This document shows, piece after piece, positions 48,682-64,000 of a DNA stretch of 64,000 nucleotides. The first letter of the stretch is position 1. The number at the start of each line of letters is the position of its first letter. The stretch is from Ancylobacter mangrovi (GTDB taxonomy: Bacteria; Pseudomonadota; Alphaproteobacteria; Rhizobiales; Xanthobacteraceae). The DNA lies in assembly GCF_024752355.1 (NCBI RefSeq), contig NZ_JANTHZ010000001.1, positions 992,001 to 1,056,000 of the forward strand, written 5' to 3'. The position numbers were made by a program, and so were the translations under genes. The notes under the pieces were generated by a model that had not been told where the DNA came from, did no database searches, and was given only the letters and a program-made list of their open reading frames with translations.

Positions 48682-49828
48682 GGGGCGCGTCCTCCGGCAC
48701 CAGCGTCACCTCGGACGGATCGAAGCAGACGCGCAGCTGATCGCCCAGCGCCGGCGGCACCGCCATCGGCACGCAGGTCATGCGCAGGCTCTCGCCTTCC
48801 GCCGTCAGCGTGATGTTGTGCACGTCGCCCTGCCACTGGACGCTCTGCACCACGCCGGTGAGCGCATTGGCCACCGCGCCCTCGCCGGCGAAGCGCATGT
48901 GGTGCGGGCGCACGCAGAGCAGGCAGTCGCGGCCCTCCGGCAGGTTGTGCGGATTGCGCGCGAGCAGCTCGGCGCCGCCGAACCGCACCCGCGCCTCGCC
49001 CGGTCCGGCCGCCGTCAGCCCGCCGACGGAAAGGAGGTTCGCCCGCCCGAGGAACTCGGCGGCGAAGCGCGTGGGCGGGTGGCGGAACAGCGCCTGCGCC
49101 TCGCCGAAGGCCTGCATCTCGCCGTCGCGCATGATGCCGATATGGTTGGCGAGCGTCAGCGCCTCGGTCTGGTCGTGCGTCACATAGAGCACGGTCAGGT
49201 CCGGCAGGTCGTGATGCAGCTTGGCGATCTCGTCGATCATGGCGCGGCGGATCTGGGTGTCGAGCGCGGAGAGCGGCTCGTCGAGCAGCAGCACCTGGGG
49301 CTTGGGCGCCAGCGCCCGGGCGATGGCGACGCGCTGCTGCTGGCCGCCGGAGAGCTCGCGCGGGTAGCGCTTGCCATAGGCCGACATGCCGACCATGGCG
49401 AGGCATTCGGGCACGCGCTGGCGGATGACGTCGCGCGGCGCGCCCTGCGCCTGGAGGCCGAAGGCGACGTTGTCCTCGACCCGCATATGCGGGAACAGCG
49501 CGTAGTTCTGCACCACCATGCCGATCTGCCGGTCATAGGGCGCGAGGTCCGTCACGTCGCGGTCGCCGATCATGATGCGGCCCGAGCTCGGCCGCACGAA
49601 GCCGGCGACGACGCGCAGCGCCGTGGTCTTGCCCGAGCCGGACGGGCCGATCAGCGCCACGATCTCCCCGGGATGGACGGTCAGGGTCAACGACTTGAGC
49701 ACGGTCAGCCCGCCGTAGGCGACCGAGACGTCCTCGAATCCGATCCGGCTGCCCGACGTCCGGGAGGCGGTGCGCACTCCGTCGAGGGGCGCGCATCGCT
49801 CGATTTCCTGGGCGGTTATGTCGACCAT
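48674..49828 (-). CDS. phnT: 2-aminoethylphosphonate ABC transporter ATPase (PhnT-like)
   Basis: ATPase of 384 residues. Walker A is GPSGSGKTTALR, the signature is LSGGQQQR, and Walker B is VLLLDEPLSALD; a C-terminal TOBE-type domain follows. The ATG at 49828 shares a base with the stop of the binding-protein gene (TGATG); a TTG one codon upstream is less likely. It belongs to the FbpC/PhnT group that energises importers for metals and phosphonates. Confidence 0.88.
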   Translation of the reverse strand: MVDITAQEIERCAPLDGVRTASRTSGSRIGFEDVSVAYGGLTVLKSLTLTVHPGEIVALIGPSGSGKTTALRVVAGFVRPSSGRIMIGDRDVTDLAPYDRQIGMVVQNYALFPHMRVEDNVAFGLQAQGAPRDVIRQRVPECLAMVGMSAYGKRYPRELSGGQQQRVAIARALAPKPQVLLLDEPLSALDTQIRRAMIDEIAKLHHDLPDLTVLYVTHDQTEALTLANHIGIMRDGEMQAFGEAQALFRHPPTRFAAEFLGRANLLSVGGLTAAGPGEARVRFGGAELLARNPHNLPEGRDCLLCVRPHHMRFAGEGAVANALTGVVQSVQWQGDVHNITLTAEGESLRMTCVPMAVPPALGDQLRVCFDPSEVTLVPEDAPRG

Positions 49829-50853
49829 CAATTGCCCGAGATCGCCTGCTTGTAGGCGGCGACGTCGGCCTTCAGGCCGTCCAGCACCTTGGTCCAGTCC
49901 GGCGACCAGATCTCGACGCCGTCGAGCATGGCGTTGAGCTTCTTGAAGTTCTCGTCGTCCGGCTTGACGTCGGTGCGTACGGGAAAGCCGCCGGCGACCG
50001 AGCTGACGTCTTCCTGCGCATCCTTGCTCAGCAGGAAGTCGATCAGCTTCTTGCCGTTCTCCGCGTCCGGGGCATTGGCGACGAGGCCGATGTAATAGGG
50101 CAGCGCGAAGGTGCTCTTCTTGCCGTCCGGGCCGGCGGGAATGAAGATCTTGATGTTCGGGTTGCTGGCCGACTGCGCCAGATTCATCTGCATGTCGCCA
50201 TTGGCGACATAGAGCTCGCCCTTGTTGACGAGGGCGGTCAGCTTGCCGGTGGAAGCGGAGGGGCCGAGATTGTTGGCCTCGAGCTTCTTGAGGTAGGCGA
50301 GACCAGCTTCCTTGCCGCCGAAGACGTGGAAGGTCTGCAGCATCAGCGCGGTGCCGTCACCGGCCTGGCCGGGCGTCGAATACTGGAGCTTCTTGGCGAA
50401 CTTCGGATCGAGCAGCGCCTCGTAGCTCGCGGGCGCTTCCTTCAGCACGGAGGCGTTGTAGATGAAGTTCGGGTAGTTGTTGATCATCGCCGCATAGAGG
50501 CCGCCGGCATCCTTGTCGCGGGCCTCGATCATGTCGCCGCCGGCGGGGGTGTAGGCCTGCAGCAGACCTTCGCTGGCGGCCTTCTGCATGAAGGGCGGCA
50601 GGGTCACGAGCACGTCGGCCTGGGTGTTCGACTTCTCCTTGGACAGGCGGTCGACGACGCCGCCGGAACCGGCCTCGACGAACTGGACCTTGATCCCGGT
50701 CGCCTTGGTGAACGCGTCGAAATGCTTGCCGTACCAGCTCGGCGAACCGTCATGGAGACCGTCGGCGCTGTAGATCGTGACGACGCCCGAATCCGCAAAG
50801 GACGGCGTCGTGGCTGCCGCGAGGAGCAGCACGGAAAGGATGGAGGCTTTCAT
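49828..50853 (-). CDS. phnS: 2-aminoethylphosphonate ABC transporter binding protein (PhnS-like)
   Basis: Periplasmic binding protein of 341 residues with a signal peptide (1-21, PSFADS). The N-terminal mature part [18 protein letters not shown] and the [18 protein letters not shown] segment are those I associate with AEP-binding proteins of this family. It heads the phnS-T-U-V-X run on the minus strand. The ATG at 50853 is preferred to an adjacent TTG. An iron-type substrate is the alternative for this superfamily, made unlikely by the neighbours. Confidence 0.85.
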
Positions 50854-50971
50854 CAAACGGGTTCCCTTTTGGGTGCCAGGCGAGAGGCGGCCTTCCGACC
50901 ATTAATTAGGCGACTTACGAACTGACCAAAAAATGATCTTGCCGCGTCGCCGATAAGTAAAATCTATTCGT

Positions 50972-51002
50972 CTTATGGTCATAGAGGTCAGGCTTATAGG
51001 TC
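50972..51002. repeat. Direct repeats upstream of phnS
   Basis: CTTATGGTC (50972-50980) and CTTATAGGTC (50993-51002) are near-identical repeats 21 bases apart, with a further GGTCA at 50986-50990 and TGACC at 50923-50927. They lie in the 214-base gap upstream of phnS and may be regulator sites. Nothing else is recognisable in that gap beyond an AT-rich stretch. Confidence 0.4.
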
Positions 51003-51067
51003 GCGAGTCGCCGCACGCGACCATCGGCCCGCTGCATGTCGGTCAGGAGACAGCCCTTAGGGAAGCT

Positions 51068-52078
51068 TCAGACGAAGGCGACGCCCCGGCTCTGCGCCAG
51101 CAGGCGCGGATCGCGCGAGCGGATGGTGACCGGCCGCCCCGCGATGATCTCGAAGCAGCGCGCCAGCGTGTCCTCTTCGAGCCGCGCCATCGCCTCATGG
51201 GTGAAGAAGGTGAGATGGGGGAACAGGATCACGTCGTCGCGCCCGAAGAGCGGGCTCATCAGGTGCCCCTCGCGCGCCAGCGGCTCGCTGGAGAAGACGT
51301 CGAGCGCCACCCCGCCGAGGCGGCCGGCGAGCACCGCCTCCACCAGCGCCGCCTCGTCGATCAGCGCGCCGCGCGAGACGTTCACCAGCACCGCGCCGGG
51401 CCTGAGGCGGGCGAGTTCGGCGCGGCCGATCAAATGGCGCGTCTGCGCGTTCAGCACGCAGTGCAGCGACACGAAATCGCAGCGGGCAAGCATGGCGTGG
51501 AGATCGTCAACCTTCTCGACGCCCGCCTGCGCCATCGTCTCCCGGTCGACATTCGGATCGAAGCCGAGCACCTGCGCGCGGAAGCCCTGCCCAGCCATGC
51601 GCGCCATGCTGCGCCCGATCTTGCCGACGCCGACGAGGCCGACCACCGAGCCGGCGATGTCGCGCCCGAGCCAGCGCTGGGCGGGCCAGATCCAGCCCTC
51701 CTCCTGCATCGCCCGCCCGATCTCGGGCAGCCGCTTTGCCAGCGCGATCATCATCGCGAAGGCGCCTTCGGCCACCGTCTCCTCGGCATATTCGGGAACG
51801 TTCACGACCGGGATGCCGCGCGCGATCGCGGCCGGGATGTCGATCGCGTCGATCCCCACCCCATATTTGACGATGCCGCGCAGCTTCCTCGCCGCGGCGA
51901 TGACACGCGGGGTGATCGGCGTGTAGCACATGAGCAGCAGGTCGGCGTCCGCCACCGCCTCCGCCAGCGCCTCCTCGCAGATGCCATCCGGCAGCGTCAC
52001 GAGGTCGATGCCCCGCGCCCGCAGGCCCGCATCGATGCCCGGACATTCGAGCTCCGCATCGGTACGAACGGCCTTCAT
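51068..52078 (-). CDS. D-isomer-specific 2-hydroxyacid dehydrogenase in the phosphonate island
   Basis: NAD(P)-dependent dehydrogenase of 336 residues. The Rossmann motif is VVGLVGVGKIGRSMA, and the catalytic set is present: Arg in VNVSRGALIDEAAL, Glu in FSSEPL, His in FPHLTFFTHEA. It lies between the importer and the PbfA-like gene, 43 bases after the latter. No known 2-aminoethylphosphonate step needs it. It could act on a phosphonate hydroxy- or keto-acid (for example in the phosphonopyruvate/phosphonolactate area) or on the pyruvate/alanine side, but this is speculation. The family is secure, the substrate unknown. Confidence 0.88.
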   Translation of the reverse strand: MKAVRTDAELECPGIDAGLRARGIDLVTLPDGICEEALAEAVADADLLLMCYTPITPRVIAAARKLRGIVKYGVGIDAIDIPAAIARGIPVVNVPEYAEETVAEGAFAMMIALAKRLPEIGRAMQEEGWIWPAQRWLGRDIAGSVVGLVGVGKIGRSMARMAGQGFRAQVLGFDPNVDRETMAQAGVEKVDDLHAMLARCDFVSLHCVLNAQTRHLIGRAELARLRPGAVLVNVSRGALIDEAALVEAVLAGRLGGVALDVFSSEPLAREGHLMSPLFGRDDVILFPHLTFFTHEAMARLEEDTLARCFEIIAGRPVTIRSRDPRLLAQSRGVAFV

Positions 52079-52120
52079 GCGCGTGGCTCCGGGAATGACG
52101 GGTCGGGACGGGAGAGGCGG

Positions 52121-53482
52121 TCAGCCGGCCAGTATGGCGGCCTCGACGATGTCGAGGGCCCGGTCGAGATCCTGCTTCGAGATGACCAGCGGCGGCGACA
52201 GGGTGAGCACGTTGCCCTGGCTGATCTTGAAGCTCAGCCCGGCCTCCAGGCAGCGGTAATAGACCGTCTCGGCCAGCGCGAGGTCCGGGCGCCGCTCGGC
52301 CCTGTCGGTGACGATCTCGACGCCGAACAGCAGCCCGCGCCCGCGCACGTCGCCGATATGGGGCGTGCGGGCCATCAGCTCGCGCATGCGGTCCATCGCG
52401 TGCGCGCCGATCTCGGCGGCCCGCTCGACGAGACCCTCCTCGCGGATGATGGCGAGGGTGGTAAGCGCCGCACGGGTCGTGACCGGGTTCTTCTCATGCG
52501 TGTAGTGGCCGATGGCGTAGTCGCCGGCGACGTCGAGGTCGTGGCGGGCGATCACCGAGGCGATCGGCAGAACACCGCCGCCCAGCGCCTTACCGAGCAC
52601 GATGATGTCCGGCGTTACCCCGTCATGCTCGGAGGCGAAGAACCGCCCGGTCTTGCCGAGCCCGGTCGGGATCTCGTCGAAGATCAGCAGCGTGCCGTGG
52701 CGGTCGCAGGCCTCGCGCACCGCCTTCCAGAAGCCGGGCGCCGGCACCAACGGCGTGGCGCGCATCGGCTCGGCGATGAAGGCCGCGAAATCGCCCTCGC
52801 GCCCGAGAACGTAGGAAATCATGTTGGCGCAGGCGCGCGCGGAATCCTCGAGGTTGTCGTAGCCATAGGCGCAGCCATGGCTGGCCCAGGGCGCGACATG
52901 CTCGGCGCCAGGCAGCAGCGGCCCGGCGATTCCGGAGCGGAAGGTCGCCTCGCCGCCGACGCTCGCCGCGCCGAAGCCCGCGCCGTGGAACGCATCCCAG
53001 AAGGACAGCGTCTTGAAGCGGCCGGTGGCGGCGCGCGCCAGCTTCAGCGCCACTTCCACCGCGTCCGAACCGCCGGTGGTGAACAGCACCTTGTCGAGCG
53101 CCCCCGGCGCCAGCCGGCCCAGCGTCTCGGCGAGTTCCACCGCCGGCTCGCAGGTGAAGCGCCGCGGCGCGAAGCACAGCTCGTCGAGCTGCGCCTTGAT
53201 CGCCTCCTTCAGCCGCGGATGACCGTAGCCGATGTGGTGGACGCTGTTGCCATGGAAATCCATGTAGCGCCGGCCGGTCGTGTCCTCGATCCAGATCCCC
53301 TCGGCTTTGGCGATCGCGGCGACGCAGGGGCTGGAGAGGCTCTGGTGCAGGAAGGCGTTGGAATCGCGTGCCAGCAGGTCGCGCGTGGCGGCATCCTGCT
53401 GGCGCGCCGTCCACGCGGCGCGGGCGGCCGAGGTGTTGGATTCCCCTTCAGTGTGGACCAGAGACAGCGGGCGGGGCGGCAT
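52121..53482 (-). CDS. pbfA: PLP-dependent class III enzyme, probable (R)-1-hydroxy-2-aminoethylphosphonate ammonia-lyase
   Basis: Class III aminotransferase-fold protein of 453 residues. Asp269 (LLIFDEIPTGLGKTGR) and the PLP lysine Lys298 (IIVLGKALGGGVLPIA) are conserved. In phosphonate clusters with phnW and phnX, the recurrent class III homologue is PbfA, which deaminates (R)-1-hydroxy-2-aminoethylphosphonate to phosphonoacetaldehyde. The placement next to phnW fits that role. The alternative is an ordinary omega-aminotransferase, since reading alone cannot separate lyase from transaminase in this fold. Confidence 0.75.
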   Translation of the reverse strand: MPPRPLSLVHTEGESNTSAARAAWTARQQDAATRDLLARDSNAFLHQSLSSPCVAAIAKAEGIWIEDTTGRRYMDFHGNSVHHIGYGHPRLKEAIKAQLDELCFAPRRFTCEPAVELAETLGRLAPGALDKVLFTTGGSDAVEVALKLARAATGRFKTLSFWDAFHGAGFGAASVGGEATFRSGIAGPLLPGAEHVAPWASHGCAYGYDNLEDSARACANMISYVLGREGDFAAFIAEPMRATPLVPAPGFWKAVREACDRHGTLLIFDEIPTGLGKTGRFFASEHDGVTPDIIVLGKALGGGVLPIASVIARHDLDVAGDYAIGHYTHEKNPVTTRAALTTLAIIREEGLVERAAEIGAHAMDRMRELMARTPHIGDVRGRGLLFGVEIVTDRAERRPDLALAETVYYRCLEAGLSFKISQGNVLTLSPPLVISKQDLDRALDIVEAAILAG

Positions 53483-53615
53483 TCAGGCGTCTCCTGGCAG
53501 GGCACGCGGCGGGCGCCGCCTGTTCATGTGAGCGCCGGCCGGTGCGGGGGCGGCGCGAAGGCGCTGCGGGTCGGGCCTTACGGACCGGCAGGTGGATAGC
53601 ACCCGTTCAGGACGA

Positions 53616-54818
53616 TCAGGCGACGAGCCGCGCGCGCTCGCCCAGAACGTGGGGCGCGGGCGCTGCCGAGGCGACGCCCATCTCCTCCAGCGACCGGCAC
53701 GCCGCCTCGACCACCGCGCGCATGACATGCGCGTCGAAATGGCCGATGCAGCCGACGCGGAAGCTCTCGACCGCCGTCAGCTTGCCCGGATAGATCAGGA
53801 AGCCCTTCGCCTTCATCAGATCGTAGAAGCGCGGGAACGAGAAGTTCGGGTCCGCCGGGCAGAAGAAGGTGACGATGATCGGCGAGAGCCAGCGTTCCGC
53901 CAGCAGCGTCTCGAAGCCCGCCGCGCGCATGCCGGCGACCAGCACGTTGCGATTATTGGCATAGCGCGCGCCCCGGCCGGCGACGCCGCCCTCGGCCTCA
54001 TGCAGATGCAGCGCCTCGATGAAGGCGGCGACGACGTGGGTGGGCGGGGTGAAGCGCCACTGGCCGGTCTTCTCCATCACCTTCCACTGGTCGTGCAGGT
54101 CGAGGCTCAGCGAATGGCAGTTGCGCTGCGCCGCCTCCAGCTCGCTCTTGCGGGCGATGACGAAGCCGAAGCCGGGCACGCCCTCGATGCACTTGTTGGC
54201 CGAGGAGACGAGCGCCTCGTAGCGCAGCGCGTTCACATCCGCCGGGACGGCACCGAAGGCGCTCATCGAATCCACCAGCAGCTTGCGCCCGCGGGCGTAG
54301 ACCGCCTCGGAAATCTCTTGGACGGGATTGAGGATGCCCGAGCTGGTCTCGCAATGGATGACCAGCACATGGGTAATCGCCGGGTCCGCATCGAGCGCCG
54401 CCGCCACCTCCTCACCGCGCGGGGGCAGGTAGTCGCCCTTGTCGATCAGCGTGTGGGCGCGGCCGAGATAGCGCAGGATCTGCGCCGCCCGCAGCCCGTA
54501 GGCGCCGTTGGCGAGCACCAGAACCTTGCCCTCGCGCGGCACCAGCGTGCCCAGCATCGCCTCGACGCAGGCCGTGCCGCTGCCCTGCATCGGCACGCAG
54601 TCGAACGCGCCGTCGCGGTCGTCGATCAGCGCCAGAAGCCGGCGGCGCAGCTCCGCCGTCAGCGCCCGGAAATCGCCGTCCCACGAACCCCAGTCGCGCA
54701 GCATCGCCTGCTTCACCGCGGCCGCGGTGGTCAGCGGGCCGGGCGTCAGAAGATAGGGCTCGCCCAGCATCGGCGGCGCGAAGGCTGTCGCGGCGTCGTC
54801 AATCGTGCCATCGGACAT
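53616..54818 (-). CDS. phnW: 2-aminoethylphosphonate--pyruvate transaminase
   Basis: Fold-type I transaminase of 400 residues converting AEP and pyruvate to phosphonoacetaldehyde and alanine. The N-terminus [10 protein letters not shown], the cofactor Asp183 ([11 protein letters not shown]) and Lys209 ([18 protein letters not shown]) match PhnW closely. The start at 54818 lies in the divergent region shared with the LysR gene; it is the first gene of the minus-strand phosphonate run. Its product is the substrate of PhnX in the same block. Confidence 0.93.
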
Positions 54819-54888
54819 GGCCGGGCCTCACGAAAGGACATTCATCGTCCCGTCATGATGGCGTGCGCAGGTTTCATTTGAGAAATCG

Positions 54889-54909
54889 TTATTTTGTATC
54901 CATATATAA
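54889..54909. promoter_or_regulatory. AT-rich LysR-type site between phnW and lysR
   Basis: TTAT at 54889-54892 and ATAA at 54906-54909 flank a 13-base centre in a run of A and T unlike the surrounding GC-rich sequence. It is about 70 bases upstream of phnW and 100 bases upstream of the LysR gene, and is the best candidate shared operator. Confidence 0.35.
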
Positions 54910-55008
54910 ACTGGAGCGATGATCGGCCGCTCATCCGGCCGGCGCGCTCGCAAACCGTCCTTCCCGCGACCCGCGGCCTCCCGCCGCCAAGCACCGGCCC
55001 GCGACGCC

Positions 55009-55914
55009 ATGCGCTACGTGCAGCTTCGTGCCTTCCATTATGTCGCGATCTCCGGCGGCTTCTCGCGCGCGGCCGCCGAGCTTTTCCTGACGCAGCCGGC
55101 CATTTCCGACCAGGTTCGCAAGCTGGAGTCCGAGTACGACATCCTGCTGTTCAACCGCGAGCGCAAGCAGGTCACGCTGACCCCGGCGGGCGAGAACCTG
55201 CTGCAGATCACGCGGCGCATGTTCGACGCCGAGAACCAGGCGCTGGAGCTGCTGTCGGAATCGCGCGCGCTGCGCGCCGGCGTGCTGCGCATCGTCGCCG
55301 ACGCGGCGCACCACATCCTCCACATCCTGCACGCCTTCCGCGAGAAATATCCCGGCGTGATGGTCACCATCCGCTCGGGCAACACCGAGACCGTGGTCGA
55401 GAACCTTCTGAACTACGAGGCCGATATCGGCGTGCTCGGCGACCTCAATCCGAGCCGGGAGTTCGACATCATCCGCCTCGACGCGACCCCGATCACCGCC
55501 TTCACCGCGCGCGACAACCCGCTGGCCCGCTCCGACGCGCTCTCCTTCGCCGAGCTCGCCACCCTGCCGCTGGTCGGCCGCGAGGTCGGCTCCAAGACCC
55601 GGCGTCGCCTCGAGGAGAGCGCGGCCAGGGACGGCGTGCAGCTCAATTTCATGATCGAGGCCGAGGGCCGCGAGGCGGTGCGCGAGATCGTGGCCTCCGG
55701 GCTCGGCGTCGGCTTCGTCTCGGAAGCCGAGTTCGGGCTCGACCCGCGCCTCGTCAAGATCCCGATCCGCGGCGAGCCGGTGCTGATGGAAGAGGCGCTG
55801 ATCTGCCTCAGCGAACGCAGCCAGGCGAAGACGATCCGCGCCTTCCTCGACCTCGCGCGCACGCTCGCCTCGCGCGAGGCCCCGCAGCCGTCGCACCGGC
55901 GCGCGGGGGCGTGA
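55009..55914 (+). CDS. LysR-family regulator of phosphonate genes
   Basis: LysR transcription factor of 301 residues. The HTH region (about 3-62, FLTQPAISDQVRKLESEYDI) is followed by a ligand domain with the GLGVGFVSEAEFG segment. The ATG at 55009 gives the typical N-terminus MRYVQLRAFHYV. It is divergent from phnW and probably activates the AEP genes. LysR regulators with phnW-phnX clusters are well known (PhnR type). Confidence 0.88.
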   Translation: MRYVQLRAFHYVAISGGFSRAAAELFLTQPAISDQVRKLESEYDILLFNRERKQVTLTPAGENLLQITRRMFDAENQALELLSESRALRAGVLRIVADAAHHILHILHAFREKYPGVMVTIRSGNTETVVENLLNYEADIGVLGDLNPSREFDIIRLDATPITAFTARDNPLARSDALSFAELATLPLVGREVGSKTRRRLEESAARDGVQLNFMIEAEGREAVREIVASGLGVGFVSEAEFGLDPRLVKIPIRGEPVLMEEALICLSERSQAKTIRAFLDLARTLASREAPQPSHRRAGA

Positions 55915-55935: not shown

Positions 55936-57444
55936 TCAGTCGCGCAAGGCGCCGGGCGTGCGGGTGAAGATCGAGCGCAGCACCTCGACCCCCTCGTCCA
56001 TCTGCTCCTCGCTGAAGGCGCTGAAGCCGAGCGTGATCAGGTGATCGACCTGCGCCTCGCGGGCGAGGGCCGAGATCGGCAGGATCTCGAGCCCCCGCCG
56101 CGCCGCCGCCTCCGCCAGCCTGCGCCCGCTCAGCCCTTCGGCGAGCTCGGCGATCACCTCCATGCCGGTATTAGTCGGCGTCGCCCGAAGCCAGTCGGAC
56201 AGCCGCCGCTCCAGGCAGTCCAGCAGATGCTCCTGCCGTTGCGCGTAGAGGCGGCGCATGCGCCGGACATGGGCGGCGAGATAGCCGTCATCCATGAAAC
56301 GCGCGACCAGCGCCTGTTCGAGCATCGGCGAATAGCGCCCGACGATGGCGCGGGCGGAGACGAAGGCTTCGACCAGCGCGTCGGGCAGCACCGCGAAGCC
56401 GAGACGCAGGCCCGGGAACAGCATCTTGCTGAAGGTGCCGAAATAGAGGACGCGTCCTTCGCGGTCGAGCGCGTGCAGCGCCGGCATGGGCCGCCCGCCA
56501 TAGCGGAACTCGGTGTCGTAGTCGTCCTCGAGGATCCAGGCGCCGGCGGCGCTGGCCCATTGCAGCAGCGCGTGCCGCCGCTCGAGGCTCAGCTCCATGC
56601 CGAGCGGGAACTGCTTGGAAGGCGAGACATAGGCGAGGCGCGCATTCGGCGCGCGCGCCAAGCCCTGCGCGACGACGAGGCCCTCCTCGTCGACCGGCAG
56701 CGGTATGGGAACCGCGCCGGCGGCGGTGGCGGAAGCGTAGATGCCGTCATATCCGGGGTCCTCGCACCAGACCTGCTCGCCCGGGGTGAGCAGGATCCGG
56801 CAGGCGAGGTCGACCGCGTGCTGGGCGCCGGCGAAGATGACGATGTTGTGCGGCCGGCAGGTGAGCCCGCGGCTGAGCGCGACATGCTCGGCGATGGCGA
56901 TGCGCAGCGGCTCGTAGCCCTGCGGGTCGCCCTCCCCCAGCAGTTCGCCGGCCGCGCCGGGATCGAGCTCGCGGTAGAGATTGGCCGCGAGGCTCGCCCA
57001 GCGGCGGACCGGGAAAGTGTCCACGGCGGGGAAATTGGCGCGGAACGGCACCGGCCGGCGCATGTGGCGCAGCGTGGACGGCGCGTGGGTGATCGCGGAA
57101 TCGGGCGCGAAGCAGCGGTTCATGTTGCCGGCCGCCTCGATGGCGGGATTGATGCGCGCCGGCGCCTTGGCCGGAAGCTGCTCGGGCAGATCGTGGACGA
57201 CATAGGTGCCCGAGCCCGTCATCGGCTGCAGGAAGCCTTCGGAAATCAGGTGGTCGAAGGCCAGCAGCACGGTGTTGCGGGAGACGCCGAGCAGGCGTGC
57301 GAAGTCCCGGGTCGAGGGGAGCTTCTCGCCCGGCTTGATCGATCCAGCGGAGATTTCGCCGACCAGCCGGTGATAGAGCTGCCGGTGCAGCGGGAGGTCG
57401 GTGCCTCTCTCGATGTCGAGAGCGAGCGAATCCAGGAGATGCAC
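55936..57444 (-). CDS. MocR-family regulator (GntR HTH + aminotransferase domain)
   Basis: Regulator of about 502 residues. The N-terminal GntR winged helix covers residues about 8-75 (GEKLPSTRDFARLLGVSRNT), and a fold-type I aminotransferase-like domain covers the rest with PLP lysine in FGTFSKMLFPGLRLGF. The GTG at 57444 was chosen because GGAGG precedes it closely and it gives a compact N-terminus; an ATG-less upstream extension exists. MocR proteins use PLP adducts of amines or amino acids as signals. It sits at the 3' end of the ABC/transaminase operon on the same strand and is probably its regulator. Confidence 0.88.
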   Translation of the reverse strand: MHLLDSLALDIERGTDLPLHRQLYHRLVGEISAGSIKPGEKLPSTRDFARLLGVSRNTVLLAFDHLISEGFLQPMTGSGTYVVHDLPEQLPAKAPARINPAIEAAGNMNRCFAPDSAITHAPSTLRHMRRPVPFRANFPAVDTFPVRRWASLAANLYRELDPGAAGELLGEGDPQGYEPLRIAIAEHVALSRGLTCRPHNIVIFAGAQHAVDLACRILLTPGEQVWCEDPGYDGIYASATAAGAVPIPLPVDEEGLVVAQGLARAPNARLAYVSPSKQFPLGMELSLERRHALLQWASAAGAWILEDDYDTEFRYGGRPMPALHALDREGRVLYFGTFSKMLFPGLRLGFAVLPDALVEAFVSARAIVGRYSPMLEQALVARFMDDGYLAAHVRRMRRLYAQRQEHLLDCLERRLSDWLRATPTNTGMEVIAELAEGLSGRRLAEAAARRGLEILPISALAREAQVDHLITLGFSAFSEEQMDEGVEVLRSIFTRTPGALRD

Positions 57445-57526
57445 GGCGCCTCCACGATCTGGGTGGCCGCCGAAACGCAAGATTCGCGCCACGCCTGCCC
57501 GTGCCACGAATCCCTCTCCGCCCCTG

Positions 57527-58354
57527 TCAGACGGCGCTGCGTTCGCGCTCCGGCCGGTGTCCGAAGGTGACGGTGCCGGTCAGCATGAGGACGAACATGA
57601 CCGCGAGCAGGAAGAACACCACCAGGTTGACGCAGGTGGCGAGCGCGTAGAGCTCCGGCTTCACCCCGTAGCGCAGCGCGCCCCAGGCGGCCGACGGCAG
57701 GGTCGGCGTCGCCCCGAGCAGGTAGAAGGAAATCTCCAGATTGTTGAACGACATGATGAAGGTGACGATGAAGGCGCCGAACAGGCCGGGCCAGACCAGC
57801 GGCAGCGTCACCTCGAAGAAGGTGCGCATCGGGCTGGCGCCGAACACCATGGCCGCATCGTCCAGCCGCCAGTCGTAGCGGTAGAGCTGGGTGGCGATGA
57901 TCAGCAGCGCATAGCTGAAGCAGTGCACCGCATTGGCGAGGATCGCCGAGCCGAGATTGCCCGGCAGGCCGAGGAACAGCCCGTTGAAGATGAGCGAGGA
58001 GATGCCCAGCAGCACCTCCGAGACGAAGAGCGGCGCGACGAACAGGGCGAGGTAGAGCGGCGCCCGGCGGCCCGCATGGCGCAGGAGCCCGATGGTCGCC
58101 AGCCCCGCGAGCAGGGTCGAGAGCGCCGCCGCGCACAGGCCGATGATGATGCTGTTGCCCAGCGCCGCCTGATAGAGCGAGTTGGAGAACAGCCGCCCCA
58201 TGATGGTGAGCGTCCATTTCGGCGGATAGGGAAAGGTGTAGTTCCGCGCGAAGCTGGCGAGCGCGATATGGATGATCGGCAGGTAGAGGAAGAGATAGCA
58301 GAGTGCCACCGTCCCCAGCAGCAGCGTCTTTGCGGGCCTGATGCGCATCCTCAT
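57527..58354 (-). CDS. Polyamine-type ABC transporter permease (PotC-like)
   Basis: Permease of 275 residues with six helices and the EAA loop LDDAAMVFGASPMRTFFEVTLPLVW. The ATG at 58354 overlaps the stop of the preceding permease by ATGA; a second ATG at 58348 has better Shine-Dalgarno spacing. It is the second membrane subunit of the importer. Confidence 0.88.
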   Translation of the reverse strand: MRMRIRPAKTLLLGTVALCYLFLYLPIIHIALASFARNYTFPYPPKWTLTIMGRLFSNSLYQAALGNSIIIGLCAAALSTLLAGLATIGLLRHAGRRAPLYLALFVAPLFVSEVLLGISSLIFNGLFLGLPGNLGSAILANAVHCFSYALLIIATQLYRYDWRLDDAAMVFGASPMRTFFEVTLPLVWPGLFGAFIVTFIMSFNNLEISFYLLGATPTLPSAAWGALRYGVKPELYALATCVNLVVFFLLAVMFVLMLTGTVTFGHRPERERSAV

Positions 58355-59211
58355 CCCCTCCCGAAGCCGGTGAAGCCGGTGCGGCGCAGGTCGAGCAGCC
58401 GCGCCACGATCGCGACCAGCAGCACGCAGACGGCGAACAGCACCACGCCCATCGCCGCCCCGAGCGCCCATGTGCCGCTCTCGGCGAATTGCTGGGCGAT
58501 CGCCATGCCGAACAGCGTGCCGTTCGGCCCGCCGAGAAAGCGCGGCGCCAGCGTCGCCGACAGGCAGGGGATGAAGCACAGCGCGAAACCGATCAGCGTG
58601 CCGAACAGGTTCAGCGGCCAGGTGACCTCGAAGAAGGCGCGCGCCGGGCTGGCGCCGAAGATCTTGGCGGCATCGATCAGCCGTTGGTCGAAATTGAGCA
58701 GCGAAAGGTAGATCACCGTCACGACAATCGGCAGATAGAGGTAGATGAGGCCGATGGCGCTGGCGAAGTTGGTGTACATGATCACCCTCAGCGGCGCGGC
58801 GCCGAGCGACATGAGCACCCCGTTGAGCAGGCCGATCGGCCCCAGCAGTCCCTGCAGCGCGATGATGCGCAGCACCTCGCCGGTGAGGAACGGCACGGCG
58901 AAGGCGAGGGAGAGCAGCAGGCGGTAGCGCCCGCCATAGAGGATGATGCCATAGGCGATCGGCCAGGCGAGCACCGTGCAGATCACAGACACCGCCGTCG
59001 CCATGAGTAGCGAGCGCAGCAGGAAGGTCTGGTAGGCGGTCTCGGTCGCCAGCACCCGATAGTTGTTCAGGTTGAAGTCCTGGATGATGTGGTAGTTCTC
59101 GGTGCGCCAGATGCTGAGCACCAGCATCGACAGGAGCGGCAGCACGAACATCGCGACCAGGAAGACGCTGGGAATGCCGAGGAAGATGGCCGGTGCGAAG
59201 CGCCCTCTCAC
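58351..59211 (-). CDS. Polyamine-type ABC transporter permease (PotB-like)
   Basis: Permease of 286 residues, with helices from about residue 8 and EAA loop LIDAAKIFGASPARAFFEVTWPLN. The start is a GTG at 59211 that overlaps the ATPase stop as GTGA, preceded by GGGAGG with a 6-base gap, a strong and unusual non-ATG start that fixes the N-terminus. A TTG-initiated longer form at 59259 is unlikely. Confidence 0.9.
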   Translation of the reverse strand: MRGRFAPAIFLGIPSVFLVAMFVLPLLSMLVLSIWRTENYHIIQDFNLNNYRVLATETAYQTFLLRSLLMATAVSVICTVLAWPIAYGIILYGGRYRLLLSLAFAVPFLTGEVLRIIALQGLLGPIGLLNGVLMSLGAAPLRVIMYTNFASAIGLIYLYLPIVVTVIYLSLLNFDQRLIDAAKIFGASPARAFFEVTWPLNLFGTLIGFALCFIPCLSATLAPRFLGGPNGTLFGMAIAQQFAESGTWALGAAMGVVLFAVCVLLVAIVARLLDLRRTGFTGFGRG

Positions 59212-60290
59212 TGGTCGCCTCCCGCCTGCGCGAACAGGTCGACATCGGCCGCGTCCCAATAGGCGGTGACCTCGGCGCCGCCGGGCAGTTCCGCGCCGTC
59301 GCGCGGCCGGCTGGCGATGAGCTCGCCCCCGCTCCAGCTCAGCACGTATTCGGCATAGGCGCCGCGCAGGATCACGTGGCGGATCCGCGCCGCTATCGTG
59401 TTCGCTCCCGCCGCCGCCCCGGGCTCGGCAAGTTTCAGGCGCACCTTCTCGTTCTTCACATAGGCGACGACATTGTCGCCCTCGCCGATGCCGGGCCGGG
59501 CGGCGGTCTCGATCAGCACGCCTTCGCCGCGGATGGCGAGGCGGTCGCTCGCCTGCGCGGCGACACCCTCGAAGCGGTTCGAGCGGCCCACGAACTGGGC
59601 GATGAAGGCCGTCTTCGGCCGGTCGTAGATGTCGGTGCGCGAGGCGAAGTCCTCCACCCGCCCGCCGCGCACCACGGCGATGCGGTCGCTCATGCTCAAC
59701 GCCTCTTCCTGATTGTGCGTGACATAGATGAAGGGGATGCCGAGCGCGGTCTGGTGCCGGCGGATCTCCACCTCCATCTCCTGGCGCAGTTCACGGTCGA
59801 GATTGGCCAGCGGCTCGTCGAGCAGCAGCACCTTGGGCCGGCCGACCAACCCGCGCCCGAGCGCGACGCGCTGCTGCTGGCCGCCGGAGAGCTGGTTCGG
59901 ATAGCGCTTCTCGAGGCCGCGAAGGGCGAGGATGCCGAGCACCCAGTCCACGCGCTCGGCTATCTCGCCCTTCTGCAGCTTCAGCATGCGCAGCGGGAAG
60001 GCGAGGTTCTCGTAGACCGTGCGGTGCGGGAACAAGAGGAATTCCTGGAACACCATCGCCACGCCCCGCCGGTGCGGCGGCAGGTGGGTGACGTCCTCGC
60101 CGTCGATGAGGACACGGCCCTGGGTCGGCGTTTCCAGCCCGGCGATGATGCGAAGGAGCGTCGTCTTGCCCGAGCCGCTGGGGCCGAGCAGCGAGACGAA
60201 CTCATGCTTGTCGATTGCCATGTCGACGCGATCGACAGCCCAGACGCTGCCGTACTGCTTGGATACGCCGTCGAGGGTTATGTAGGCCAC
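59208..60290 (-). CDS. Polyamine-type ABC transporter ATPase (PotA-like)
   Basis: ATPase of 360 residues with Walker A GPSGSGKTTLLR, signature LSGGQQQR and Walker B VLLLDEPLANLD, then a TOBE domain with an IAARIRHVILRGAYAEY segment typical of PotA. It is preceded by a 78-base gap with a hairpin after the binding-protein gene. It powers import of a cationic amine or related solute. Confidence 0.92.
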   Translation of the reverse strand: MAYITLDGVSKQYGSVWAVDRVDMAIDKHEFVSLLGPSGSGKTTLLRIIAGLETPTQGRVLIDGEDVTHLPPHRRGVAMVFQEFLLFPHRTVYENLAFPLRMLKLQKGEIAERVDWVLGILALRGLEKRYPNQLSGGQQQRVALGRGLVGRPKVLLLDEPLANLDRELRQEMEVEIRRHQTALGIPFIYVTHNQEEALSMSDRIAVVRGGRVEDFASRTDIYDRPKTAFIAQFVGRSNRFEGVAAQASDRLAIRGEGVLIETAARPGIGEGDNVVAYVKNEKVRLKLAEPGAAAGANTIAARIRHVILRGAYAEYVLSWSGGELIASRPRDGAELPGGAEVTAYWDAADVDLFAQAGGDQ

Positions 60291-60325
60291 GCCGCACTCC
60301 CGGATGAAAAGAGACAGAAGCTGAT

Positions 60326-60352
60326 GCCCGGGCCGCCAGAGCGCACCCGGGC
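60326..60352 (-). other. Intercistronic hairpin between binding-protein and ATPase genes
   Basis: GCCCGGG (60326-60332) and CCCGGGC (60346-60352) form a 7-bp stem with a 13-base loop in the gap after the binding-protein stop. It parallels the hairpin at 36065-36093 and may boost binding-protein expression relative to downstream genes. Confidence 0.5.
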
Positions 60353-60368
60353 GATGGCTTCGGTCCGA

Positions 60369-61568
60369 TCAGGCGGCCTGCATGCGCGACCAGACACGCT
60401 CCCATTTCTCGGTCGAGGAGGGCTGGTCGAACATGTACATGGTCGACAGTTCCTCGGTGCGGTCCATCAGATAGAGCTTCTGCTCCTCCGGCGTCGAGAT
60501 CGGGCGCAGGTCCACCGTCGCCGAGGTGCCGGCGATGAGCGAGATCTTCTTGATCGTCTCGGGAGCGAGGAAGGTGTCGATGAAGTCGTAGCAGAGCGCG
60601 AGCGTGCCCGGATCGGTGACGCCCGAGGTCACCAGCCAGGTATCCACCCAGCCAAGCCCGCCCTCCTTCGGCACGAGCTGGTGGGCGAAGTCGAGATCGG
60701 TCTCGCCCTTCATCTTCTTCTGCACCAGCACGCGATAGATCTGGGCGAATTCCGGCGCCGCCACGATGGCACCGCTCTCCAGAAGCTGCTGCAGCGTGGT
60801 GTTGTCCTGGTAGCGGGTGAGCAGGAGCGGCTTCTGCTGGATCAGCAGCTTCTCCACCTCCGCCAGCTCCTCGTCGGTGAGGACGTAGGGGTTGAACGGC
60901 TTGCCGTCGGGGCGCGGCTTGTCCTTGGTGCCCATACGGGTCGCGACCAGGATGCCGGTGAGGGCGATGTTCTCCTCGAAGCGCGCGCTGGTCGACAGGC
61001 GCCCGGCATAGGCCGGGTCGAACAGCACCTCGATGCTCTGCACCTTCTCCTTCGGCACCTCGGCGGTGTTGTAGGTGGTGCCGTAGCTGCCCCAGCACCA
61101 GGTGACGCCGAAATGCTCGCCCGAGGTCTGGTCCGTCAGCAGCTTGTAGCGGTCGGGCTGGAACACCGGGTAGACGTTGGCGGTGTTGGGGATCCTGGCG
61201 TAGTCGATCGCCCGGATCAGCTTCTCCCGGAAATAGAGGCCCGGCCAGTAGCCGTCGGCCTGCACCAGATCGAAGTCCTTCGTGCCGCCGACGCGCAGCT
61301 TGTTATAGGCTTCGGAATTGCCGTCGAAGAAGGTCGGCGAAAACTTGACCTTGTGCTTGTCCTCGAAGGCCGAGACGATTTCGGGAACGGCGTAGCCCTC
61401 CCACATCAGCGCGCGCAGCTCGGTCGGCGCCGCCGAGGCGGGCCGGATATAGGGTGCGGCGACGGCGGTCACGGCGCCGGCCGCGAGCGTCTTCAGCACG
61501 GTGCGGCGATCGGCGGACAGCGCGGACGAGACCGCCGCGTCGCACGAACGAGACTTCGATTTGGTCAT
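60369..61568 (-). CDS. Polyamine-type ABC transporter binding protein (PotD-like)
   Basis: Periplasmic binding protein of 399 residues with a probable Tat signal (SADRRTVLKTLAAGAVTAVAAP; cleavage near PASAA). Segments LMWEGYAVPEIVSAFEDKH and VTWCWGSYGTTYNTAEVP are typical of PotD/PotF-like proteins. It follows the transaminase gene by 119 bases on the same strand. The ligand is probably an amine; binding specificity cannot be read. Confidence 0.88.
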   Translation of the reverse strand: MTKSKSRSCDAAVSSALSADRRTVLKTLAAGAVTAVAAPYIRPASAAPTELRALMWEGYAVPEIVSAFEDKHKVKFSPTFFDGNSEAYNKLRVGGTKDFDLVQADGYWPGLYFREKLIRAIDYARIPNTANVYPVFQPDRYKLLTDQTSGEHFGVTWCWGSYGTTYNTAEVPKEKVQSIEVLFDPAYAGRLSTSARFEENIALTGILVATRMGTKDKPRPDGKPFNPYVLTDEELAEVEKLLIQQKPLLLTRYQDNTTLQQLLESGAIVAAPEFAQIYRVLVQKKMKGETDLDFAHQLVPKEGGLGWVDTWLVTSGVTDPGTLALCYDFIDTFLAPETIKKISLIAGTSATVDLRPISTPEEQKLYLMDRTEELSTMYMFDQPSSTEKWERVWSRMQAA

Positions 61569-61687
61569 GGTCAGGCCCTCTGGTTTTTCGAGATTGGCGG
61601 GATTGCTTCCCTGCGGGACCCATGCCTTGTGCGTTTCCCCTCCGGGCGGTCTGGCGCCGCCTCAGCCTGCGTGTCACCTGTCGCCGT

Positions 61688-62629
61688 TCAGGCCGCGAGC
61701 GCGAACGGGTTGTCGGCATCGGCATAGTTGACCGGCGTCATGTGCCAGCCTTCCTTGTGCTTGCGCCAATAGGTCTCCTTCAGCTTCGCGCTGATCGGCC
61801 CGGGCCGGTCGTTGCCGTAGATGCGCTCGTTCACCCGCGCGCAGGGCATCACGCCGCCGGCGGTGGTGGTGGTGAACACCTCGTCGGCATCCATCAGGTC
61901 GTCGAAGGTGATCGGCCCGACCACCGGCTCGAGGCCGAGCTCGGGGCAGATGTCGAGCACCGACAGGCGCGTCACCCCTTCCAGCGCGCCGCGGTCCGGC
62001 GTGATGACCTTGGTGCCCTTGACGATGAAGACGTTGAAGCCCGCGCCCTCGGTCAGGAAGCCTTCCTGGTCCAGCAGGATGGCGGTGTCGAAGCCCTTGT
62101 CGTTGGCCTCGAACATGCCGCGCGTGAAGTCGCGCCACATGTAGTTCTTCAGCGTCGGGTCGAGCGAGCGGGGCGAGATGCGCGGCACCGACGCCACCAG
62201 CAGATGCGCGCCGCGCTCCTGCACCTCGGGCTTGATGACGTCGACCCACGGCACCGCATAGGCGATGAAGGTGTTGTCGCAGTCGAGCGGGTTGCGCGAG
62301 CCGTAGACGCTCGGGACGCCGCGGGTCGAGACCATCGCGACGAAGGCATGCTGCAGCCCGCTCAGCGCCACGACGCGGCCGAGGATGTGGCGCATCTGCT
62401 CACGGGTGACGCCTGGATCGAGCCGGTAGCCGGCCAGCGACCTGTGGAAGCGGTCGAGGTGGTCCTCGAGGCGGAAGAAGCCGCCATCGGTGACGTGGAC
62501 GACGTCATAGGTGACGTCGGAATGCACGAAGCCCCAGTCGCCGACCGGAATCCTGGCCTCGGAGATCGGCACATAGGTGCCGTTCATGTAGGCGGCGCCC
62601 TTCGAGTAGTCGGGGCTCGACTCGCTCAT
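61688..62629 (-). CDS. Fold-type IV transaminase resembling (R)-selective amine transaminases
   Basis: PLP enzyme of 313 residues, class IV fold. The N-terminal motif GFVHSDVTYDVVHV followed by FFRLEDHLDRF matches the signature I know from (R)-selective amine transaminases (HSDLTYDV and FFRLDDH) rather than branched-chain or D-amino-acid enzymes. The PLP lysine is Lys161 (SLDPTLKNYMWRDFT) and Glu194 in LTEGAGFNVF binds the cofactor nitrogen. It heads a minus-strand run into a polyamine-type importer and lies divergent from the LarA-like gene. Natural substrates are unknown. D-amino acid transaminase is the fallback assignment. Confidence 0.85.
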   Translation of the reverse strand: MSESSPDYSKGAAYMNGTYVPISEARIPVGDWGFVHSDVTYDVVHVTDGGFFRLEDHLDRFHRSLAGYRLDPGVTREQMRHILGRVVALSGLQHAFVAMVSTRGVPSVYGSRNPLDCDNTFIAYAVPWVDVIKPEVQERGAHLLVASVPRISPRSLDPTLKNYMWRDFTRGMFEANDKGFDTAILLDQEGFLTEGAGFNVFIVKGTKVITPDRGALEGVTRLSVLDICPELGLEPVVGPITFDDLMDADEVFTTTTAGGVMPCARVNERIYGNDRPGPISAKLKETYWRKHKEGWHMTPVNYADADNPFALAA

Positions 62630-62810
62630 GGTGTTCTCCTTCCAATTTCCGCACCGAGCGGACCGGAGACAGCTTTCCTCTCAATGGCCCCGTCAAAAAG
62701 CACCGCTTCGCAGGAAACGGACGGTACCACTTCCATCCCGGCGGGCCGGCCGTCCGGGTTCCCCTTCCCGGGCACCGCGTCCCTTGCTTCGCGCGCGGGC
62801 GAGCGCATAT

Positions 62811-62824
62811 GTCGGCAGGCCGAC
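62811..62824. promoter_or_regulatory. Inverted repeat in the transaminase/LarA divergent region
   Basis: GTCGGC-AG-GCCGAC is a perfect 6-bp inverted repeat with a 2-base centre, followed by TCTTTTG, within the 287-base gap between the divergent transaminase and LarA-like genes. It could be a regulator site. The rest of the gap is GC-rich and unremarkable. Confidence 0.35.
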
Positions 62825-62916
62825 TCTTTTGCGCGGCGATCCTGATATGATCGCGCGCGGCGCGTCTCGCGCCATCGTCCCCCGTGTCGGCAAGCAAGGC
62901 CCCGGACCTGAGTATC

Positions 62917-64000
62917 ATGGCAGACGCCCGATCGATTCCCCTGCTCTTCGGACGCGCCGGCATCGAGCTGAAACTGCCCGAGGCGGCGCGCCCGCAGATC
63001 ATCCAGAAGGCGCACCTGCCCCGGCTGCCGGATGCTCGCGCAGCGCTGCAGGACGCGCTCGACACGCCCATCGACGCCCCCCCGCTGGCGGAGCTCGCGA
63101 AGGGCCGGGCCAGCGCCTGCATCCTCATCTGCGACATCACCAGGCCGGTGCCGAACGGGCTGTTCCTGCGGCCGATGATCGAGACGATGCACGCCGCCGG
63201 CATCCCGCTTTCCGCCATCACCGTGCTGGTCGCCACCGGCCTACACCGGCCGAACGAGGGCGCGGAGCTCGCCGAGCTGGTGGGTGACGACTGGGTGCTG
63301 GAGAATGTCACGGTCGCGAACCATTTCGCCCGCGACGCCGAGGCCCATGTCGACCTCGGCCCGACGCCGACGCGCGCGACGCCGGTCTTCATCGACCGCC
63401 GCTTCGTCGAGGCGGAGCTGCGCATCGCCACCGGCCTCGTCGAGCCGCATTTCATGGCCGGCTGGTCGGGCGGGCGCAAGGTGGTGGCACCGGGCGTCGC
63501 CGGCCACCAGACCATCCGCACCTTCCATTCGGCGCGGTTCATGGAGGACCCGCTGGCGGTCCAGTGCAATCTCGTCGGCAACCCGCTGCATGAGGAGCAG
63601 CTCGAGATCGTGCGCAAGATCGGCGAGATCTACGCGCTCAACACCGTGCTCGACGAGGACCGCAACCTGGTCCACGTGACCTTCGGCGAGATCATCGCGA
63701 GCCATCTGGCGGCGGTCGACTTCGTCACCTCCGCGACCCGCATCGAGATGCCGCGCAAGTTCAAGACCGTGGTCACCACCTCGGCCGGCTATCCGCTCGA
63801 CAAGACCTACTACCAGACCGTCAAGGGCATGGTGACGCCGCTCGACATACTGGAGCCGGGCGGCACGCTGATCATCGCCTCGGAATGCTCGGAAGGCTTC
63901 GGCTCCGAGGAGTTCCGCGACGCGCAGGCGCGCCTGGTCGAGCTCGGGCCGGAGCGCTTCCTCGCCACCATCAGCGCCAAGTCGCTGGCGGACATCGACG
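62917..64000 (+). CDS. LarA-like nickel-enzyme homologue (3' end cut)
   Basis: Lactate-racemase-like protein, at least 361 residues visible and open at the window edge. The N-terminal domain has CDITRPVPN and VATGLHRPNEG. His110, His178, Lys188 (EPHFMAGWSGGRK) and His204 occupy the same spacing as the residues that hold the nickel-pincer cofactor in LarA (His-Lys 10 apart, Lys-His 16 apart). It should therefore bind that cofactor, which requires LarB, LarC and LarE made elsewhere. Substrate could be lactate or another hydroxy acid. Its ATG at 62917 is divergent from the transaminase gene. Confidence 0.88.
   Translation, partial: MADARSIPLLFGRAGIELKLPEAARPQIIQKAHLPRLPDARAALQDALDTPIDAPPLAELAKGRASACILICDITRPVPNGLFLRPMIETMHAAGIPLSAITVLVATGLHRPNEGAELAELVGDDWVLENVTVANHFARDAEAHVDLGPTPTRATPVFIDRRFVEAELRIATGLVEPHFMAGWSGGRKVVAPGVAGHQTIRTFHSARFMEDPLAVQCNLVGNPLHEEQLEIVRKIGEIYALNTVLDEDRNLVHVTFGEIIASHLAAVDFVTSATRIEMPRKFKTVVTTSAGYPLDKTYYQTVKGMVTPLDILEPGGTLIIASECSEGFGSEEFRDAQARLVELGPERFLATISAKSLADID

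Follow-up and report, generated by a model that had tools for sequence, protein, structure and literature searches.

The window analysed here, a stretch of 64,000 nucleotides from Ancylobacter mangrovi (assembly GCF_024752355.1, contig NZ_JANTHZ010000001.1, positions 992,001 to 1,056,000), carries towards its end a block of six genes on the minus strand encoding a transaminase, an ATP-binding cassette (ABC) importer of the PotDABC type and a MocR regulator. The first gene (61688-62629) encodes a fold type IV transaminase of 313 aa dependent on pyridoxal phosphate (PLP) (PF01063, E 7.9e-41, 140.8 bits). It is followed by the genes for a PotD-type substrate-binding protein (SBP; 60369-61568; PF13416, the top solved chain being a polyamine transport protein), a PotA-type ABC ATPase (59208-60290; PF00005 and TOBE_2), a PotB-type permease (58351-59259; PF00528), a PotC-type permease (57527-58348; PF00528) and MocR (55936-57507), which joins a GntR helix-turn-helix (PF00392) to a fold type I aminotransferase domain (PF00155, Aminotran_1_2). 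From the transaminase to MocR, the genes are separated by 119 bp, 78 bp, an overlap, 2 bp and 19 bp, and third-position GC ranges from 0.89 to 0.94 across the six. The TTG start listed for PotB at 59259 may be too early, a GTG at 59211 being a candidate. A larA-like gene diverges from the transaminase gene on the plus strand (62884-64000, continuing past the window to L008:2212; PF09861, Lar_N, and PF21113, LarA_C). The 254 bp between these two genes contain a putative MocR operator, a 36-bp direct-repeat element on the minus strand (62697-62732), 67 bp before the transaminase start. The original prediction for this locus had described this gene set, with the larA-like gene divergent from the rest, and all of it is present, as are the HSDVTYDV and FFRLEDH motifs that it had named in the transaminase protein.

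To judge by gene order in other genomes, the transaminase, the importer and MocR are one conserved unit. We compared neighbourhoods at 18 loci from a similarity search and at loci taken from relatives, and found the complete six-gene block, in identical order and with varying flanks, in 20 distinct genomes from five genera. Fourteen of these belong to the genus Ancylobacter (the window, L010, L011, L012, L013, L015, L017, L018, L020, L024, L025, L058, L059 and L061) and six lie outside it (two named Methylopila, G580, G749, Mangrovicoccus and Zavarzinia). Beyond the six genes, no neighbouring family (at least 45% identity) was common to more than two of the eight taxon groups. The own genus contains three further, partial blocks: in G006 the transaminase match is limited to residues 1-245 and PotD is missing, in G016 only the transaminase and PotD remain nearby, and in G021 the contig ends there. 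A decayed block was found in G027 (L152:9001-11316), where a deletion joins residue ~34 of the transaminase to residue ~126 of the first permease, with the 36-bp element still in place. MocR orthologues (E <= 1e-120) were present in 16 of the 17 relatives with a transaminase orthologue (at least 76% identity), the sole exception being G016, and in none of the 84 without one (101 relatives). The original prediction had called for a survey of genomes for co-occurrence of the transaminase, importer and LarA-like genes, and for the first two the 20 complete blocks in five genera show it. The block is nevertheless rare, since PotD was recovered at E <= 1e-100 in only 6 of 397 genomes of the order, the own genome included, and in 1 of 398 genomes of the phylum, the own genome itself; one of the six order-level genomes, G684 (52% identity), lacks the transaminase. 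In the transaminase phylogeny the Methylopila and Mangrovicoccus sequences were nested among those of Ancylobacter, with weak internal support. This nesting, together with the scatter of the block over distant genera, suggests that the block may have been transferred horizontally.

A comparison of upstream footprints revealed the conserved 36-bp element before the transaminase, AAKTGGYNCYGTCNYTTYNNNNNNAARCGGYNCTTT, a direct repeat with boxes AAKTGGYNC and AARCGGYNC 24 nt apart. At up to three mismatches, a whole-genome search found it once in the own genome, at the position given above, and as a single copy in 18 of the 101 relatives; the reversed pattern, used as a control, matched once in the same relatives. 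The element lies 66-82 bp before the transaminase in all 17 transaminase genomes, and the eighteenth is G027, where it precedes the deletion remnant. Most of these genomes went into building the pattern, so its presence in them is partly by construction. This does not apply to its absence elsewhere in those genomes, or to the matches with no mismatch in G749 and G580, both left out of pattern building (G580 belongs to the genus of Methylopila, which did enter it). At up to five mismatches, the element was present in 19 of the 20 complete blocks. Passages of PMC5320631 place aminotransferases and transporters in MocR regulons and describe repeated boxes in which TGT or TGG is frequent. We infer that the 36-bp direct repeat is a putative MocR operator, which fits local MocR control. 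The link between MocR and the transaminase and importer in the original prediction is consistent with both the conserved unit and this upstream repeat, found at most once per genome at up to three mismatches.

Two other readings of these data were considered. The MocR protein scored 457 bits with the rhizopine MocR model (cut-off 650) and 403.1 bits with the PdxR model (cut-off 320). Since it exceeds the PdxR cut-off, a role in PLP biosynthesis would be predicted, with MocR governing PLP supply in the manner of PdxR and the block being no more than an indirect target. However, the single site in the own genome at up to three mismatches precedes the transaminase and MocR is tied to the block (16/17 versus 0/84), and we regard this explanation as very improbable. 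The element could also be an RNA hairpin or terminator rather than a DNA operator, as a terminator-like stem with a T run overlaps it (62703-62720; three such sites occur in the stretch, with 2.7 expected). We aligned 21 element sequences, leaving aside duplicates, the remnant in G027 and the three loci without a match (L021, L026 and L062); 95.2% of the cells can pair, against 42-57% when slid. However, no pair was changed on both sides in the 21 sequences, covariation did not exceed that of shuffles, the consensus energy was -1.66 kcal/mol, and the first repeat box falls mostly outside the stem, yet resembles the second. The hairpin was rejected for its lack of covariation and we consider it unlikely; the putative operator remains our preferred reading of the element.

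The LarA-like protein is, on the evidence of its distribution, not part of the unit and appears to be a chance neighbour of the block. The original prediction had it racemise or epimerise a hydroxy acid derived from the transamination product, in a full series running from the importer through the transaminase to LarA. Such a pathway would account for the divergent larA/transaminase pair, with the putative operator in its 254-bp intergenic region, and for the cofactor genes that follow larA in the order larA-larC-larE-larB (LarC 172.2 bits, cut-off 90; LarC2 95.8, cut-off 50; LarE 241.1, cut-off 150; LarB 236.8, cut-off 175). However, LarA adjoins the block in only one of the 20 complete cases, the window itself (~8-10 kb upstream covered in most loci), and within the genus 9 of 17 genomes with the block and 6 of the 13 other genomes have it (Fisher P = 1.0). 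Five relatives (G001, G011, G013, G020 and G029) carry it 25-43 kb away from the transaminase, two (G016 and G023) far away on the same contig and one (G021) on a separate contig; in G027 the distance to the block remnant is 26 kb. On this lone adjacency and the independent distribution in the genus, LarA was rejected as a pathway member, and the full series, which we now rate as scarcely credible, is largely refuted. The positions point to loose regional synteny but no linkage, and the adjacency in the window is best read as a rearrangement. The original prediction had named a lack of conserved co-occurrence with the importer and the LarA-like gene as evidence that would count against it: for LarA that lack was observed, for the importer it was not. 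The LarA-like protein itself scored below the cut-off of all five LarA/LarAH models matched (Ni_dep_LarA 341.6 of 460; malate-type models 282.8 of 500 and 251.7 of 462; LarAH10 233.4 of 540; LarAH14/15/16 57.6 of 740). After larA-larC-larE-larB, the region L008:884-19795 holds genes that are transporter-like (from a reading of the sequence), sugar-acid-dehydratase-like and lactate-dehydrogenase-like, apparently a 2-hydroxy-acid or sugar-acid region in which LarA would make sense.

Enzymes of the PLP fold type IV family act on (R)-amines, D-amino acids or L-branched-chain amino acids. The closest solved structure to the transaminase is the amine transaminase 8zm7 (261 bits), the nearest solved proteins are amine transaminases mostly named (R)-selective, and the protein is 41-43% identical to five reference chains (8zm7, 6snl, 6fte, 6xwb and 6xu3). 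Signature residues of the (R)-selective amine transaminases ((R)-ATAs), in the numbering of the Nectria enzyme, were taken from passages of PMC4255305 and counted in a MAFFT alignment. The eight reference rows were the five PDB chains and L086-L088; L026 (partial) and L023 (shorter than 250 aa) were dropped, and L022 and L091 represent one Zavarzinia locus. K161 occupies the catalytic-lysine column in all 115 alignment rows, including the 23 block rows. The block rows also keep H53 (21/23), Y58 (23/23), V60 (23/23), F113 (22/23) and V114 (23/23). Three other signature residues are lost: the S62 position is His in 23/23 block rows (S in four and A in four of the references), the E115 position is Ala in 23/23 (E in 4/8 references) and the R126 position is Tyr in 22 and Phe in one (Arg in 8/8 references), a pairing also seen without gaps. 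FFRL-D/E-DH, one of the two motifs on which the (R)-selective label had been based, does not figure in the list of specificity residues that passages of PMC4255305 give for the Nectria enzyme. One arginine of the O-pocket loop binds the pyruvate carboxylate in R-selective transaminases according to passages of PMC8320979, and Arg126 is described in PMC4255305 as too remote in the Nectria enzyme. The loop arginine R112 was found in 23/23 block rows and in none of the eight references by MAFFT, whereas ungapped pairing places K, T, K and R there in 8zm7, 6snl, 6fte and 6xwb, with 6xu3 gapped. We dropped the idea that the arginine had moved within the loop, since ungapped pairing gives 6xwb an arginine at that place, and, as the two methods disagree at R112, only the loss of R126 is claimed.

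In the FastTree phylogeny (midpoint-rooted, with the five reference chains), the four (R)-ATA structures, TaTT (6xu3) and L086-L088 grouped apart (support 1.0), and the block transaminases fell inside a large other group. This placement puts the transaminase in a clade that is sister to the characterised (R)-ATAs and outside their own group. Its position outside the (R)-ATA group and the loss of three signature residues mean that its activity cannot be read off. The label of (R)-amine transaminase thus holds for the fold, the catalytic lysine and five motif residues, but not for S62, E115, R126 or the position in the tree. A paralogue in the own genome (L086:9390-10403; G000:C12:620846-621718) is 61-68% identical to the five reference chains and keeps the loop motif VRG; it adjoins a different Pot-type importer and is more (R)-ATA-like than the block transaminase.

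The importer has the PotABCD architecture, with an SBP, an ATPase and two permeases in one run, and in this respect the polyamine-type assignment stands. The curated family models do not back it up: no PotA, PotB, PotC or PotD cut-off was reached among the matches listed (for the ATPase, the best 25 of 186 families), the scores being 33.4 of 582 for PotD, 316.6 of 482 for PotA, 125.9 of 348 for PotB and 95.3 of 326 for PotC. The ATPase scored slightly higher with PhnT2 (318.6 bits) than with PotA, both under cut-off. Alignments of the PotD-like protein with SpuD and PotF were weak and its AlphaFold2 model was poor (mean confidence score, pLDDT, 50.4). The signal region contains an arginine pair, R21 R22, that is invariant in 11/11 aligned orthologues, and the SBP is possibly exported by the twin-arginine translocation (Tat) pathway. 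A general pairing of the transaminase clade with Pot-type importers, defined as a binding protein and two permeases of importer type within 7 kb, was rejected as a class-wide trait, as it was found in 3 of 60 class-survey loci, one of which is the Zavarzinia block; the contexts were diverse and showed no enrichment. The survey listed 69 places (2 in the own genome, 60 examined and 7 left out), and several loci end at contig ends. In the set of relatives, the pairing was found in 11/33, three of these being the block itself and the rest belonging to a few clades. The own genome encodes 30 SBP_bac_8 proteins over the cut-off, so that ~0.085 would be expected per 14 kb by chance. Transaminases 62% identical to that of the block precede another PotDABC set in three genomes.

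One neighbourhood clue to the substrate comes from two Sphingomonas metagenome-assembled genomes (MAGs; L026 and L027), in which a D-amino-acid dehydrogenase (DadA) gene directly follows the transaminase. The L027 copy scored 702.8 bits (cut-off 383) and the L026 copy clusters with it; L027 also has MocR and the element (one mismatch), with no importer beside the transaminase. This arrangement fits an (R)-amine or a D-amino reaction. It can be read as D-amino-acid catabolism, in which the importer would take up a D-amino acid, perhaps a cationic one, and the transaminase would deaminate it. The loop arginine R112 in 23/23 block rows is in line with this reading, and passages of PMC10671532 and PMC8320979 describe fold type IV enzymes that accept D-amino acids as well as (R)-amines. 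However, (R)-ATAs form D-alanine from pyruvate (passages of PMC4255305), so DadA could recycle the D-alanine produced by an (R)-amine reaction just as well as oxidise a D-amino acid, and D-amino-acid transaminase models scored far under their cut-offs (136.7 of 320, 97.8 of 277.45 and 38.7 of 538). We therefore treat D-amino-acid catabolism as a possibility of modest weight.

Polyol-like amines are hinted at by other neighbours. Genes resembling those for DeoR, glycerol-3-phosphate oxidase and glycerol kinase lie just upstream in 5 of the 20 blocks (A. crimeensis, the two Methylopila, G580 and G749), and the nearest transaminase-free importer (G684, PotD 52%) stands beside DeoR-like, class II aldolase-like and FGGY kinase-like genes. 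The substrate might then be an amino polyol, such as serinol or 3-aminopropane-1,2-diol, with its product entering a glycerol-type pathway. However, the arrangement is limited to those 5 complete blocks and the own genome lacks such genes there, and the genes scanned (the A. crimeensis set and the G684 aldolase-like and kinase-like genes) were all below family cut-off. The A. crimeensis oxidase-like protein is also 69-73% identical to its Methylopila counterparts and at most 65% identical to those of its own genus, so the genes may simply have moved together with the block, and the amino-polyol route appears unlikely. Other contexts were seen for related transaminases. In five Ancylobacter-group genomes without the six-gene block (L066-L070), a ~60% identical transaminase directly precedes glyA (serine hydroxymethyltransferase), and in L072, L073 and L075 transaminases of 50-51% identity follow two tandem genes read from their sequence as hydantoinase-B-like. 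A gene similarly read as a CaiB-type CoA-transferase lies upstream in three Ancylobacter, the G027 remnant and Zavarzinia (58% identity).

Taking these observations together, we lean towards reading the block as a self-contained catabolic cassette for amine import and transamination, probably under its own MocR. The PotDABC-type importer would bring in a small amino compound, and the fold type IV transaminase would pass its amino group on to a keto-acid acceptor, probably pyruvate, yielding a ketone, aldehyde or keto acid together with D-alanine or another D-amino acid. MocR would sense the compound as a PLP adduct and, acting at the direct repeat upstream of the transaminase gene, would regulate the block. 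Sequence comparison shows the six-gene unit and how it is conserved, the conserved element upstream and the independent distribution of LarA; the assignment of the element to MocR, the transport direction, the inducer, the amino acceptor and the stereochemistry are inferences. Several observations weigh against it. Mangrovicoccus has the block, yet no element at up to five mismatches, and the second transaminase copy in G006 (L062) also lacks it; MocR exceeds the PdxR cut-off (403.1 versus 320); the transaminase does not group with the characterised (R)-ATAs and has none of S62, E115 and R126; and the class survey showed the importer pairing at only 3/60 loci. In Sphingomonas no importer lies beside the transaminase; the two MAGs bear lichen names from a single series and are perhaps not independent, the match to the transaminase in L026 is limited to residues 94-313 with no element at up to five mismatches, and the best DadA-like match in the own genome is only 36% identical.

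A narrower proposal, that the cassette is a catabolic system dedicated to one natural chiral amine, amino alcohol or D-amino compound, is put forward tentatively. If correct, a large fold type IV clade, the sisters of the (R)-ATAs that have lost the loop arginine R126, would gain a physiological role that can be traced. The abstracts and passages of the literature examined state no cellular role for (R)-selective fold type IV transaminases, despite their heavy use in synthesis, and the combinations of terms searched yielded no paper on the present set of genes. As MocR is apparently tied to one transaminase, one importer and one site, it should be possible to find the natural substrate: whatever compound acts on MocR at the 36-bp element would be expected to be the ligand of the importer and the substrate of the transaminase as well. 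MocR and its operator would then form a compact, movable sensor for the imported compound, ready-made for the amine of the transaminase.

A phosphonate cluster adjoins the block in the window (48674-55914), with PhnW, PbfA and a 2-aminoethylphosphonate (AEP)-binding protein above cut-off and an AEP-type LysR at 340 of 341.1 bits. It includes a D-2-hydroxyacid-dehydrogenase-like gene (51068-52078); passages of PMC12366243 give the name PbfF, and the function of an NAD-dependent racemase, to such a gene in clusters for AEP.

Each component of the locus can be compared with a characterised system. The LarA-like protein resembles the nickel-pincer racemases (332 bits with the broad-spectrum LarA 9eid/9eia) and has larC, larE and larB alongside, but it falls below the cut-offs of the five matched models and is unlinked to the block in relatives. 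The importer shares its four-component architecture, and sequence similarity, with PotABCD, PotFGHI and the AEP importers, but reaches no Pot or AEP cut-off among the families listed. The transaminase shares the fold with the (R)-ATAs (8zm7, 6snl, 6fte, 6xwb, 4ce5 and 3wwh), as well as 41-43% identity with the first four and the residues H53, Y58, V60, F113 and V114; it differs from them in S62 to His, E115 to Ala and R126 to Tyr, and in its separate group in the tree. With D-amino-acid transaminases of expanded specificity, such as BlasaTA and CpuTA, it shares fold type IV, the (R)/D side and, in two relatives, a DadA neighbour, but its scores with D-amino-acid transaminase families are far below cut-off. 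The aminotransferases of the taurine, γ-aminobutyric acid (GABA) and ectoine pathways are fold type I enzymes, whereas that of the block is of fold type IV and would be expected to have (R)/D stereochemistry. The block resembles the MocR-controlled operons for these compounds (TauR for taurine, GabR for GABA and EutR for ectoine): passages of PMC5320631 describe in them transporters and an aminotransferase under the control of a MocR, a repeated operator ahead of the target, to which the putative operator of the block would correspond, and aminotransferases homologous to each other. We read the block as a cassette for the uptake and transamination of an amine, probably controlled by its own MocR, and as a variation on a type of system already known.

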